Source of the DNA: a virus
Virus record (IMG/VR): IMGVR_UViG_3300036859_000057
Coordinates: 1-38,183 of that record
DNA: 38,183 bases
Strand: one strand, 5' to 3'
Shown here: positions 15,093-23,829 of the stretch, piece after piece
Position numbering within the stretch: the first letter of the stretch is position 1
Layout: each line of letters opens with the position of its first letter
Notes under the pieces: generated by a model
Databases searched by the model: none
What the model was told of the DNA's origin: nothing
What the model saw: only the letters and a program-made list of their open reading frames with translations
Position numbers and translations under genes: made by a program

Positions 15093-15278
15093 AGCGGGGT
15101 CCTTTCGTGGGAAGTTGCTGGATGCAGCCTTTCGCTGCTGTTCACGGCCCCGTAACCGCAGTTATCGCCGGGTATTGGCCCAGATTTCGGACTGGTGACC
15201 GAGAAGCTCCGGAGGATCCCCCAACCGGATTTGGGTATTCACGTTGATTGTAAGCGTTACGCAGTCTATGGTGCCCGA
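15093..15278. other. Intergenic segment upstream of the coat gene
   Basis: A 186-base gap separates the coat gene start from the GIY-YIG gene in opposite orientation. It includes the coat gene's AAAGGA site and a small inverted repeat (GCAGC/GCTGC near 15131-15145). I see no convincing gene. A coat promoter may lie here but no clear -35/-10 pair was found. Confidence 0.4.
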
Positions 15279-16025
15279 ATGAGCACCAAAGCCTACGTTT
15301 ACGCCATCCGTCACATCTCGACCGGCGATAGCTATGTCGGATGCACTCGCAACAAGTCACAGCGGTGGGCACGCCATCGCTCGTTGCTGAAGCACGGCAA
15401 GCATCACAGCCGCCGTCTTCAATCTCTATGGGATCAGGAGGGTCTTCAGGCCTTCGACTTCGTCATCCTTGAAGCTATCGAGGCCCCAACGACTGATCTG
15501 CAGTATTCAAGGGAGCTCCACTGGGTTTCCGTCTACGGAACCCTGAACACTCAAATCGCGAATAACGGCGTTGATGCCTTCACGCTGCGGCCTGACGATG
15601 CAGAACAACGGCGCGTGTCCAGCCTAGAGCGGGTCGCTTCCGATCCAGACCTTCGTGAATTCCTAACCGAGCGCGGACGCTCATTGGCGGAACTATCCAA
15701 ACTCCCTGAAAGCCGAGCAGCGATGTCCATCCACAGCAAGCGCCGATGGCAGAACCCAAAGGAAGCCGCAAAGCTTCGCGCTGGGCTTGAGCGTCGTTGG
15801 CAAGACCCAGAAGAACGGGTCAAAGCCTCGGAACGCATCAAGAATGCACCTGACGAATTGCGCAAGAAACGCGCGTCATCACTGGCTGCCACATGGGCCG
15901 ATCCAGAGAGGAACAATACTCTCATGGAGAGCCGTAAAAAGCGCTGGGCCGATCCTGAGGCAAAAGCCAAGCAGGCCGAAAAGATGCGACAGATATGGGC
16001 CCAACGGCGTATGCAGAAGGACTAA
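15279..16025 (+). CDS. GIY-YIG homing endonuclease
   Basis: A 248-residue protein with a GIY-YIG nuclease core at the N-terminus: AYVYAIRHISTGDSYVGCT gives the paired Y..Y / YVG signature, followed by the Arg of WARHR and the region ending FVILE. The C-terminal half has four irregular copies of a [R/T]W[Q/A][D/N]P[E/K] motif (RWQNPKEA, RWQDPEER, TWADPERN, RWADPEAK), probably a DNA-binding repeat array. It is on the plus strand, opposite to coat and scaffold genes, and its stop directly abuts the scaffold stop. The frame is open further upstream to 15195, but the ATG at 15279 begins the conserved domain. No strong ribosome binding site was seen. Confidence 0.8.
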   Translation: MSTKAYVYAIRHISTGDSYVGCTRNKSQRWARHRSLLKHGKHHSRRLQSLWDQEGLQAFDFVILEAIEAPTTDLQYSRELHWVSVYGTLNTQIANNGVDAFTLRPDDAEQRRVSSLERVASDPDLREFLTERGRSLAELSKLPESRAAMSIHSKRRWQNPKEAAKLRAGLERRWQDPEERVKASERIKNAPDELRKKRASSLAATWADPERNNTLMESRKKRWADPEAKAKQAEKMRQIWAQRRMQKD

Positions 16026-17703: not shown

Positions 17704-18005
17704 TGCAGGGACCTCCTGGACAATTCCGGCGTGCGCTCGGTAGCGCGCTCATTGAACTCGGTCAGCGCGTCATAGATCGCGTTCTTCTCGTGATCAGACG
17801 TGCCGGGAAGAGACAGAACCCCGACGAGGGCTTCAACCGCGACCTCGACATGATCCTTCCAGTGCTGACGCACGAAACGGCGCTGAGTGCCCGCTTGCTG
17901 GCGAAACCGCTCGGTGCGGTTCATATCGTAGAAAGCGCCCGCGATTTCCTTCGCAGTGTGCTTGATGAGCTGTGGCACCTCTCCGGCGCGGATGTTCAGG
18001 AGCAT
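17700..18005 (-). CDS. Helical protein of unknown function downstream of portal
   Basis: A 101-residue predominantly helical protein (begins LLNIRAGEVPQLIKHTAKEIAG; contains RFVRQHWKDHVEVAVEALVGVLSLPG). The ATG at 18005 shares its first base with the TGA of the portal gene (TGATG), indicating coupled translation. No named family is recognised. Its conserved-looking slot after the portal suggests a head-assembly role. Confidence 0.6.
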   Translation of the reverse strand: MLLNIRAGEVPQLIKHTAKEIAGAFYDMNRTERFRQQAGTQRRFVRQHWKDHVEVAVEALVGVLSLPGTSDHEKNAIYDALTEFNERATERTPELSRRSLQ

Positions 18006-21000
18006 CACATCATTCCTTGCTGTGGCGGCTGCATCGGCTGTTGCATGCCCATCTGCGGTGGCTCTGGCTGAACCGGCTGCGGCTGTTCAAAACCTGCCTG
18101 AGGCTCTTCCGGTCCACCGCTGGACAGCAATTGCTGTAGTAGTTGCATGAGAACCGGCTGGATCTGCTCGGGCGTGATCATCGGGCCAGAGTTACCAACC
18201 GCCGAAATGCGCCGCGTGGTGGCGTCGTATTCCTTGACGTTAAGGTCGCCGTCCTTGCTCTGCAGTTTTTGGTTCAACTCGACGATTGTGTTCTGCATCT
18301 GCTCAATCATCTGCTGCATCTGCTGAACTTCTGGCGCCGGCGCTTCACCGGTGATGTTCTTCGGAATGATGCGCGACCAGCGTTCGGCAAGCTCATCGGC
18401 CAGCGGGAAGTCCGCCGACTTGAACAGCAGATCCCCGGCGACCTTCATGAACTCTTGGTTCTGCGATGCGATCTGCGTCATCGCGTTGAACGCTTCCTGA
18501 CGCCGTGTTGCATAGCCCGGTCCGATGTCGCTCTCTACCTCGTAGCGACCGACGCTGGGGTTGAAGATGGCCGCTACCGTGCGGGATACATCGTCCATCT
18601 GCTGATCGGAAGGCATAGCGCCTGCGGACTGATAGGCAACCTCAGCGCTCGGATCGACTTGGATGTGACTTTCGGTCCCATCCTTGGCGAGGATGCGGAT
18701 CACGCGCTCGGTGTCGTAAATCTTCGGGATCAGGTCGATCAGGATCATACCGGTAAAGCGGATCCCAACGGCGAGACCATCGATGAAGTGATAGGTGGCT
18801 GTGTCGCCCTGGCGCTGACGTTCGTTGATCGCCTTGCCCGACGTGGCGTTTTCATTCTGGCCGAACTGCGATTGATACTGCCCCGAGGACATCATCATCT
18901 GGTTTTCGCAGATCTGCATACCTTGGATGTAGGCGGAGGCCATCTGCGGGGGCTGCTCGCGCTGCGGGCGAGGGATTTCCTTCCCGTCCTCGCTGAGAGC
19001 GTTATAGGGCAGCACCGCGGCGTTTGAAGTGTTCGCCTTCTTCCAATAGTCTTCGAAGTTCTCGATAGCTTCGGCGGGGGCGATATATGGCGTCTTGGTC
19101 TGCAACGCGACCTGTGCCGTCGCTTCGGATGTGTTGTGCGTCGGTACCATGCTAGGACCAGCGAGGAACAAATGCGACGGGCTGTCTATGGAAACACACC
19201 GAACCGGAACCGAAGTGACTTCGACTATTGCGATGATGCCGTGGCGCTTTGTGCGGCGCGCGTGGCTCTTGCGCAATGCGTTCTGGATTTTTGCCTTACG
19301 CTCCATCCTGAAGACGGGAAGGTCAGAAGTAAATGTAACTCGTTGAGATGGAGCACACGAATAGGTTTCGCCGTTCGGGAAGCGTTTAGTGCGGCCAGCA
19401 AGTGCATAAACGAACGCTTTCATCCCGAGGGATCGGATTAGCTCCACCACGCCAGCCATGATGACCGGATTGGAGTTATCAAACGAGCATTGGCGTGTCG
19501 TCTTGTTGATATTTCCGTCTGTGTCCATAAGCCCTTGAAGAAGGGCCAATCGCTGGTCGAAAGACCCACGAAGGTAGACAGTGGGAATGTGCTTGTCACC
19601 GAGGACGCCAGCCTTGCGCAGATCACTCGTCAGACCATAGGTCGGGATACGCATAGCGGTTGCGGTCAAAACGGGGTCGCCTACATTAACGCCAGCGGCG
19701 CTAAGCGCATCGGCCATGCCAGAAGCGTCGTCAACCGACGCCGTAATGCCGCCACCAGCACTCGTTCCGTCTCCAAGCCATACTCCAAGGGCATATGGAT
19801 CTACGGCAAGATCTGCAGATGGCAATTCAAGCGGCTTGGCAACGTCGATAAAGTGATCTCCGGGGCGAAGATCCGCCGTTGTCAGCTTCTTCTTGGTCCA
19901 TTCCCATGTCGCCGCTTTGCGTTTTCCTCGCTCTTCAACTACCCACGGGTGCTCGGCATCAGCCACGATCTCCGAACCATCGTCGAATGTGACACGGAAG
20001 CATTTCCGGTCAAGGAACACATCGCTCATGCCCCGGACGTTGGTAGGCTTCCCAGCATCGTCAAGGATGGTATCCCCTACCTCGATATCGCCCATCTTCG
20101 TCCAGCCAGTCGGCGTGGGAATAGGCGTATCCAAGCTGAGAGGCCAATAATTGTACATCCTCTGGGCGTCCTTCATCCCGCGGGTATGTCCCTTGCGGTC
20201 AAGCTTGCCCTCGATGATCGTCTCTTCGCCTACGACACGAACGATCGGGATGTATTTCCCCGGCCACGGACGGCTGTCGATGACACGATTGCCGGCGATC
20301 TTGTACCACATGATTTCGTCGGTCAGGATCTCGCGAGACGTCGTTCCCTCCGCGTCCTTGACCAACTCGAGAAGCGCTTTCTGCTCGTCGGTCATTACCG
20401 ACTGGCGAACGATGACCTGTTCTCCGGCGCCTTCGAACCCTTCCGGGATCGTCATCGCCCAAAGACGGTCCTTCTTGTTCTCCTTGCGATAGTATTCGCA
20501 GATGCGGACGGTATCCTTCCCGGCCCAATTCCCCTCGACGCCGAAGGTGCTATTCGAGAGATATTCCGATTCATCCGGGTATTCCGCCTTGAACTGATCG
20601 CACGGGATATCCTCGAACACGAAGCCGAAGCGAGCGTCCGAACCATCGGCCTGCGTGATATCCGGATCGAGATAAACGGCCATCGGGTTCTTTACCCGGC
20701 GGATGTAAATCTCCTGATCGAAGCTGTCATCGCTCACATAGTCGGTGACGATGCGCCAGTATCCGACGCCGCCTTGCACCTGAAACATCGACGCCGTGTC
20801 ATAGGCCTGCTCAGCATTGGACTGATACTCGACGTGGCGGACAACGCCTTCAAAGACCTGGGCAGCATCATAGCTCGCGCCATCGCCAACCGGCTTGATG
20901 TTGACGCCTGGCTTGTTCTGCTTGGCATCGTTGGTGATGATCAGATTGTGCTGGCGCGTCTTGTTGATCGTCAGGCACGGCTTGTCGTCATTGATGCGGT

Positions 21001-21178
21001 TCGTGGTGATCGCTGCATCCCACTGCCATCCGTTGTCGGGATCAGCGTTTGCGAACTTCAGATCCTCGATAAACTTCCGGCGCGTGTCAGCTTCCCAGTC
21101 CTCGCACTTCGTGAAGCGCTCTTTGGCTTCCGTGACGATCTTGTCGTTTTCGGACTTGCGGTCCTTCTTGGATGCCAT
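18005..21178 (-). CDS. Portal protein interrupted by a class 3 intein
   Basis: A 1057-residue precursor. Removing residues 346-682 leaves about 720 residues, close to the P22 portal length (725). The N-extein (1-345) and C-extein (683-1057) both fit P22-type portals, including NDDKPCLTINKT, PWPGKYIPIVRV and, after the junction, TKTPYIAPAEAIENFEDYW. The C-terminus is Gln/Pro/Met-rich. The dodecameric portal forms the packaging channel and the tail attachment vertex. The ATG overlaps the terminase stop (TGATG). The intein sits after MYNYW and before TSEATA, inside a conserved portal segment, so splicing is needed for a working portal. Confidence 0.85.
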   Translation of the reverse strand: MASKKDRKSENDKIVTEAKERFTKCEDWEADTRRKFIEDLKFANADPDNGWQWDAAITTNRINDDKPCLTINKTRQHNLIITNDAKQNKPGVNIKPVGDGASYDAAQVFEGVVRHVEYQSNAEQAYDTASMFQVQGGVGYWRIVTDYVSDDSFDQEIYIRRVKNPMAVYLDPDITQADGSDARFGFVFEDIPCDQFKAEYPDESEYLSNSTFGVEGNWAGKDTVRICEYYRKENKKDRLWAMTIPEGFEGAGEQVIVRQSVMTDEQKALLELVKDAEGTTSREILTDEIMWYKIAGNRVIDSRPWPGKYIPIVRVVGEETIIEGKLDRKGHTRGMKDAQRMYNYWPLSLDTPIPTPTGWTKMGDIEVGDTILDDAGKPTNVRGMSDVFLDRKCFRVTFDDGSEIVADAEHPWVVEERGKRKAATWEWTKKKLTTADLRPGDHFIDVAKPLELPSADLAVDPYALGVWLGDGTSAGGGITASVDDASGMADALSAAGVNVGDPVLTATAMRIPTYGLTSDLRKAGVLGDKHIPTVYLRGSFDQRLALLQGLMDTDGNINKTTRQCSFDNSNPVIMAGVVELIRSLGMKAFVYALAGRTKRFPNGETYSCAPSQRVTFTSDLPVFRMERKAKIQNALRKSHARRTKRHGIIAIVEVTSVPVRCVSIDSPSHLFLAGPSMVPTHNTSEATAQVALQTKTPYIAPAEAIENFEDYWKKANTSNAAVLPYNALSEDGKEIPRPQREQPPQMASAYIQGMQICENQMMMSSGQYQSQFGQNENATSGKAINERQRQGDTATYHFIDGLAVGIRFTGMILIDLIPKIYDTERVIRILAKDGTESHIQVDPSAEVAYQSAGAMPSDQQMDDVSRTVAAIFNPSVGRYEVESDIGPGYATRRQEAFNAMTQIASQNQEFMKVAGDLLFKSADFPLADELAERWSRIIPKNITGEAPAPEVQQMQQMIEQMQNTIVELNQKLQSKDGDLNVKEYDATTRRISAVGNSGPMITPEQIQPVLMQLLQQLLSSGGPEEPQAGFEQPQPVQPEPPQMGMQQPMQPPQQGMM
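19133..20143 (-). mobile_element. Class 3 intein with LAGLIDADG homing endonuclease in the portal gene
   Basis: This in-frame 337-residue insertion covers portal precursor residues 346-682. Block A is LSLDTPIPTPTGWTKMGD, but residue 1 is proline, not Cys, Ser or Ala. The three hallmark residues of class 3 inteins are present. Trp412 lies in block B two residues after the block B histidine (AEHPW). Cys661 lies in block F (VPVRCVSID). Thr680 precedes the terminal His681-Asn682 (VPTHN). The +1 extein residue is Thr683. In class 3 splicing the block F Cys attacks first and forms the branched intermediate. Two LAGLIDADG motifs are visible (ALGVWLGDG ending at 471 and LLQGLMDTDG ending at 555), with likely catalytic acids D470 and D554. 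Confidence 0.88.
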
Positions 21179-23380: not shown

Positions 23381-23743
23381 TTATTTCCCCATCTGATTAA
23401 CGCCGACTGGCCACCGCTGGTCGCTGTTCTTGTTGTAGCAACGCTTTTTCATGCCGCACCATGTCGAATAAAGTGGATGGCGTTGCGCCTTAATCAGGGA
23501 CGCTCCCCCGTGTTTCTCGAATGATATTCTCTGTGTCTCAGAATTAAGACATCCACAACTGCGCGAACGACCTTCCTTCAGATGACCTCCGTGAACGGTT
23601 TTACTTGTGCCGCACTCACACATGCAGTTCCAATAAGGCTGCCGCCCTCGTTTTCCTGCGTAACTCACGATGATGAAGCGCCCGAACTTCATTCCGGTTA
23701 GATTCTTGAATTGAGGGTTATTCGGCATTTCTACACTGCTCAT
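23381..23743 (-). pseudogene. Truncated HNH-like homing endonuclease upstream of terS
   Basis: A 120-codon reading frame whose N-terminal module (FGRFIIVSYAGKRGRQPYWNCMCECG ... SCGC) is clearly related to that of the HNH-like gene at 12348-12878. The next conserved segment begins normally (HPLYSTWCGMKKRCYNKNSDQR) but then stops. The expected YG.RGI...W and DRID..G.YEP.NCRW parts are missing, and the last residues (WPVGVNQMGK) read into the terS ribosome binding site. The element seems to have lost its nuclease half by deletion. The start is ATG 23743, with GAGGA upstream. It may still bind DNA through the N-terminal module. Confidence 0.7.
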
Positions 23744-23764
23744 TCGCGTGAAATCCTCTTCCGT

Positions 23765-23793
23765 TTGAGAGATTTTCACAATATCAGTGATAC
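23765..23793 (+). promoter_or_regulatory. Promoter with operator-like palindrome for the HTH gene
   Basis: A -35-like TTGAGA (23765-23770) and a -10-like TGATAC (23788-23793) are separated by 17 bases. An 11-base perfect palindrome around a central base, TATCA-G-TGATA (23782-23792), covers the -10 box. A ribosome binding site AAGGAG (23817-23822) lies 7 bases before ATG 23830. Palindromes in this place are typical operators for small repressors, so autoregulation is likely but untested. The segment may also influence the divergent late transcript. Confidence 0.5.
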
Positions 23794-23829
23794 TTGCCCC
23801 TAGCAATAAACGCCACAAGGAGTATGAGA

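Follow-up and report, generated by a model that had tools for sequence, protein, structure and literature searches.

A class 3 intein with a LAGLIDADG endonuclease and proline at position 1 in a P22-type phage portal gene

The minus strand of the window (the whole 38,183-nt stretch of viral DNA that was analyzed) carries a P22-type portal gene, in which the portal precursor and its insert are read in a single open frame of 1057 aa (Table 1). The Pfam model PF16510 aligned to this ORF in two stretches (E 5e-151), the best of which ends at residue 345; both exteins match the model, and solved P22-type portals match too, in agreement with the host protein named by the first-pass annotation. No portal model matched the intervening segment from P346 to N682. 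This segment matches the terminase profiles phrog_36964 and phrog_15, most simply because these profiles include inteins. The boundaries given earlier for the insert (19133-20143) and the positions of P346, W412, C661 and T680 are all exact on the minus-strand ORF, and the exteins of 345 and 375 aa add up to a predicted spliced portal of 720 aa, the length of about 720 residues that had been proposed. Counted on the alignment, the insertion point falls near Met332/Ile333 in the P22 portal structure 3lj5. An Rfam scan of the whole window gave no match; thus, there is no group I intron signal as a competitor.

Table 1 Features of the portal locus, of the neighboring endonuclease ORFs and of the insertion registers (residues of the intein are numbered from Pro346 = 1)
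Feature	Position	Strand	Basis or members
Portal protein precursor ORF, P22-type, intein-split	18005..21178	-	1057 aa; PF16510 P22_portal E 5e-151; phrog_156 portal E 1e-97
N-extein, residues 1-345, end ...KDAQRMYNYW	20144..21178	-	alignment to intein-free portals PAE2, phiAX1, DSL-LC05, ctNMl277
Class 3 intein, 337 aa, P346-N682 of precursor	19133..20143	-	sequence, structure-profile match, empty-site alignment, fold
Intein position 1, Pro (Pro346), non-nucleophilic	20141..20143	-	sequence; Pro in 23/105 relatives
Cys48, on redox partner Cys48 of M. smegmatis DnaBi1	20000..20002	-	alignment; Cys in 96/105 relatives
Block B His65, DxxH motif (Asp62-His65)	19949..19951	-	105/105 relatives
Trp67 (W412 of precursor), W of WCT, block B position 12 (B12)	19943..19945	-	105/105 relatives; on W67 of 6bs8
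LAGLIDADG homing endonuclease domain, about intein residues 105-285	19289..19831	-	PF05204 E 9e-8; Asp125 (LGVWLGDG), Asp209 (GLMDTDG); PI-SceI Z 27.7
Cys316 (C661 of precursor), C of WCT, block F position 4 (F4), predicted first nucleophile	19196..19198	-	105/105 relatives; on catalytic Cys118 of 6bs8
Thr335-His336-Asn337 (T680-H681-N682), T of WCT (G5), penultimate His, terminal Asn	19133..19141	-	sequence; relatives
+1 nucleophile Thr683, first C-extein residue	19130..19132	-	sequence; Thr also in intein-free PAE2 and L094
C-extein, residues 683-1057, start TSEATAQVAL	18005..19132	-	alignment to intein-free portals
GIY-YIG homing endonuclease ORF	15195..16025	+	PF01541 E 2e-8; phrog_314 E 2e-18
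HNH endonuclease-like ORF	23381..23818	-	phrog_374 E 1e-32
Register a, directly past the Trp345 column			window, L278, L214, L014, L203
Register b, one residue further on			L197, L198, L199, L201, L279-L289

The empty site defines the boundaries of the insert. Without the insert, the window portal is 53% identical over 679 columns to the intein-free portal of Pseudomonas phage PAE2, and the empty site is seamless, with the junction QRMYNYW/TSEATAQVAL in the window and QRMYNYW/TSSAVEQVAL in PAE2 (slashes mark junctions). A closer comparison is provided by the viral contig L278, whose intein is 75% and whose exteins are ~65% identical to those of the window, and by the contig L094, which belongs to a Hyphomicrobiales MAG and has an intein-free portal closely related to that of the window. 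The flanks of the L278 intein are ~91% identical in DNA to L094, and, when joined, align with it over 400/400 nt with no gap. Intein-free portals that keep the W, C and T residues as extein, named beforehand, in combination with a lack of splicing, as evidence against an intein, did not occur; the intein-free portals are without the insert.

Class 3 inteins are defined by a WCT triplet at positions B12, F4 and G5 (PMC5050341, PMC7891396). A structure-profile comparison matched the insert to 6bs8 (E 6e-32) and 6rix (E 1e-30) at the N- and C-terminal splicing blocks, with residue 2 of the insert opposite residue 2 of both structures and N337 opposite the final Asn of each. Among 105 non-redundant relatives (mutual identity below ~85%), His65, Trp67, Cys316, Thr335 and Asn337 are invariant (105/105). 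At position 1, by contrast, 66 relatives have Ala, 23 have Pro and 5 have Cys, the others having Leu, Gly, His, Arg or Asp. Position 1 of class 3 inteins takes no part in the chemistry, so a variable position 1 beside an invariant WCT is as expected of this class, and the E-values together with the invariance exclude a chance match. The window intein has Pro1, H65, W67, C316, T335, N337 and Thr at +1; its W67, C316 and T335 coincide with the class 3 triplet of the solved inteins in the block alignment that the first-pass annotation had proposed as a check, which bears out its assignment of a class 3 set lacking a nucleophile at residue 1. A class 1 intein is ruled out, position 1 being Pro and not Cys, Ser or Thr. 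In all its sequence and fold features, the portal insert is a class 3 intein. Meanwhile, two other portal inteins (L289, 3498-4538; L201, 3498-4514) have the full WCT plus Cys1, and thus two candidate first nucleophiles, which makes them well suited to telling class 1 from class 3 chemistry.

The AlphaFold2 model of the intein, for which two rows from the phage collection were left out of the alignment, has a pLDDT of 94.5 and a pTM of 0.92. It superimposes on M. smegmatis DnaBi1 (6bs8, chain C) at 1.0 Å over 125/125 residues with 54% identity (Z 23.0), so the predicted model has a HINT fold like that of solved class 3 inteins. PI-SceI is an intein with an endonuclease, and the model matches it with Z 27.7 over ~320 residues. 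Together with the PF05204 match and two LAGLIDADG motifs with their catalytic Asp125 and Asp209 intact, this agrees with the complete LAGLIDADG endonuclease described at first.

Compared with known inteins, the splicing domain most resembles those of M. smegmatis DnaBi1 and M. chimaera DnaB1 (6bs8, 6rix; 1.0-1.6 Å over 125-130 residues, 53-54% identity), with which it shares the positions of the WCT, DxxH and THN residues and of Cys48. However, these are mini-inteins in a replicative helicase, with Ala1 in DnaBi1, whereas the window intein starts with Pro, includes a complete LAGLIDADG domain and resides in a portal. The terminase large subunit (TerL) intein of phiCbK-like Caulobacter phages shares Pro1, a His-Asn end, a similar length (341 aa) and an alphaproteobacterial phage as carrier (PMC3556154), but its host protein differs and that paper does not name it 'class 3'. 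Of the known inteins in phage portals, the two inspected are of class 1. Portal inteins of C1 mycobacteriophages are on record (PMC5050341), and the example inspected, ET08 gp79, likewise has a LAGLIDADG domain and a +1 Thr, but has Cys1, neither block B Trp nor block F Cys, an SHN end and a portal of family phrog_2833; that of the crAss-like phage cr118_1 sits in a portal with weak P22_portal similarity, but has Cys1 and a CHN/S end. The TerL inteins of mycobacteriophages such as Gaia combine class 3 with LAGLIDADG and are 40% identical to the window intein over the full length, but they have a terminase host and Ala1 and are not part of the 24-row clade in which the portal inteins lie. A 2020 survey counted 1701 class 3 inteins in nr (PMC7891396), and Pro1 is found both in the phiCbK TerL intein (PMC3556154) and in 23/105 relatives; hence, the earlier framing of the insert as a rarity is overstated. 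The suggested widening of the host-protein range stands in part: portal inteins were already known, but the two inspected are class 1. In the open-access papers searched, class 3 inteins were not found reported from any portal, the 1701-member set not being itemised in the main text of PMC7891396. The portal is therefore a host protein for which we found no report of class 3 inteins, while portal inteins and Pro1 as such were already known.

The window intein is one of ~18 distinct class 3 inteins in P22-type portals of uncultivated phages, a family found by alignment-based scans of viral contigs; as a lone query against these contigs, the window intein found only ~33%-identical relatives, and the portal family needed alignment queries. 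All these inteins lie in one motif, in two registers one codon apart (window site 20143/20144), which resemble the adjacent TerL1-a and -b sites of mycobacteriophages (PMC5050341). Among 154 intein-free portals, the +1 residue of register b is Ser or Thr in 153, and that of register a is Thr, Ser or Cys in 45. The +1 residue of the register-a inteins is Thr or Cys in 5/5; in L014, it is Cys, in contrast to Val in the 80% identical intein-free relative DSL-LC05. This fits selection for a +1 nucleophile, hence for splicing, in five cases that are not fully independent. Among 80 viral and 80 genome portal loci fetched by portal motifs, an intein was present solely in L014, which indicates that it is uncommon among portals. 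In INPHARED, no record covers 80% of the precursor, and no isolate combining the portal with the intein was found there. Separately, two contigs (L215, 3501-4493; L225, 2990-4003) carry Pro1 class 3 inteins in PF04860-type portals (...QGAGE/PLALDT...THN/TR...). These inteins fall outside the P22-portal clade, so that class 3 inteins occur in a further family of portals, PF04860.

The intein tree groups 19 portal rows with five non-portal rows (L204, L290, L291, L292, L295) in a clade with support of 100/100; as the five are nested inside, the portal inteins do not form a strict clade. L290 and L292 are terminases by their phrog_2 matches outside the intein, and L204 is weakly so (phrog_38); L291 and L295 have a junction of the same kind as L290 and L292 without a clear extein match. 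The inteins of L290 (3315-4304), L291 (3498-4499), L292 (3498-4511) and L295 (1070-2098) are inserted toward the C terminus of their terminase or terminase-like hosts, leaving a C-extein of ~120-130 residues, whereas terminase inteins usually lie in the N-terminal ATPase domain. The non-portal inteins of this clade, of which at least two (L290, L292) sit in terminases, suggest that inteins have been exchanged between the genes of terminases and portals. Furthermore, the insertion register is out of step with the intein tree, intein identity exceeds extein identity in 148/153 pairs, and the portal (extein) topology is rejected by the intein data (AU p 0.0004). Unequal rates of change could account for the identity gap, yet not for the topology conflict, and the data are most simply read as inteins moving horizontally among portals and into them. 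Between the window and L278 inteins, dN is ~0.19 and dS ~3 (saturated, so that the dN/dS value is rough); the low dN against the high dS indicates strong constraint on the sequence. The window TerL was also tried as a common-ancestry marker with other intein-bearing contigs; 13 records gave no match, which is uninformative by itself.

We consider it very likely that a mobile class 3 intein, equipped with a LAGLIDADG homing endonuclease, has inserted into a P22-type portal, between its residues Trp345 and Thr683. Judged from its sequence, the intein is almost certainly able to splice. In the order of nucleophilic steps predicted from studied relatives, the block F Cys316, aided by the block B His65 and Thr335, would directly attack the Trp345-Pro346 peptide bond, the N-extein would be transferred from Cys316 to the +1 Thr683, Asn682 (N337 of the intein) would cyclise with the help of His681, and the exteins would be rejoined as a 720-residue portal. 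Splicing would presumably be needed before portal and capsid assembly. We infer that the endonuclease is active and would cut at the conserved codons for QRMYNYW in portal genes free of the intein, which would then be copied into the cut gene during repair; the conflict between the intein and portal trees is indirect support for this.

Splicing of the intein might furthermore be conditional, a refinement of the preferred reading that does not compete with it and that we regard as unlikely: a disulfide between Cys48 and Cys316, formed under oxidation, would gate portal maturation. The window Cys48 aligns with the redox partner of M. smegmatis DnaBi1, where a disulfide forms between Cys48 and the catalytic Cys (PMC6195587), and is kept in 96/105 relatives. 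However, such broad conservation equally fits a structural or catalytic need, every tested Cys48 mutant of DnaBi1 lost splicing (PMC6195587), and there is no sign that the window intein splices slowly. Cys48 conservation may reflect a structural need, or possibly redox control. The residue is termed non-conserved by the authors of the DnaBi1 study (PMC6195587); in the present set it is Cys in 96/105 class 3 relatives, the window intein among them. The wider proposal that phage portals harbor a distinct, established lineage of class 3 inteins, at two neighboring codons of P22-type portals and separately in PF04860 portals, and that Cys48-Cys316 redox control governs capsid assembly is, taken as a whole, a long shot. 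Still less probable is an intein by descent that has lost splicing, leaving a dead portal or a tolerated insert. A class 3 pseudogene has been described (PMC3196547) and the window record is a single uncultivated assembly, but the catalytic residues and the +1 nucleophile are all intact, the sequence is under constraint, and a ring protein would hardly tolerate 337 unspliced residues within one of its conserved motifs. Finally, that the insert is a resident portal domain, as its single place in many portals might suggest, has next to no probability, since the complete class 3 active site and the conflicting intein and portal trees speak against it and the L278/L094 pair, in which the intein-free portal shares ~94% identity with the exteins of its intein-bearing counterpart and has neither insert nor scar, refutes it for the family.

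The carrier of this intein had been called a probable alphaproteobacterial phage, which is plausible but unproven: the nearest intein-free portal in bacterial genomes is that of a Hyphomicrobiales MAG (68-69% identity). A portal relative at E <= 1e-20 is present in 14/297 Hyphomicrobiales genomes, none of them with an intein among the matches listed. The GIY-YIG ORF of the window is stand-alone and read from the opposite strand; it separates the coat gene from the scaffold gene and is possibly a second selfish element of the head-gene block. The HNH endonuclease-like ORF adjoins the terminase small subunit gene and is the third homing-type endonuclease in ~10 kb.

A survey of mycobacteriophages compared class 3 inteins via exteins that contain an ATPase, with RecB as the exception (PMC5050341). 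Protein engineering could draw usefully on class 3 inteins that begin with Pro, Leu, His, Asp or Ala, and the intein-bearing L278 and intein-free L094 portals are a ready pair for a homing test. The portal is a structural ring without ATPase and would offer a direct test of whether the splicing rate limits capsid assembly. Since it has no ATPase, its inteins indicate that class 3 inteins also spread in a further component of the packaging machinery.
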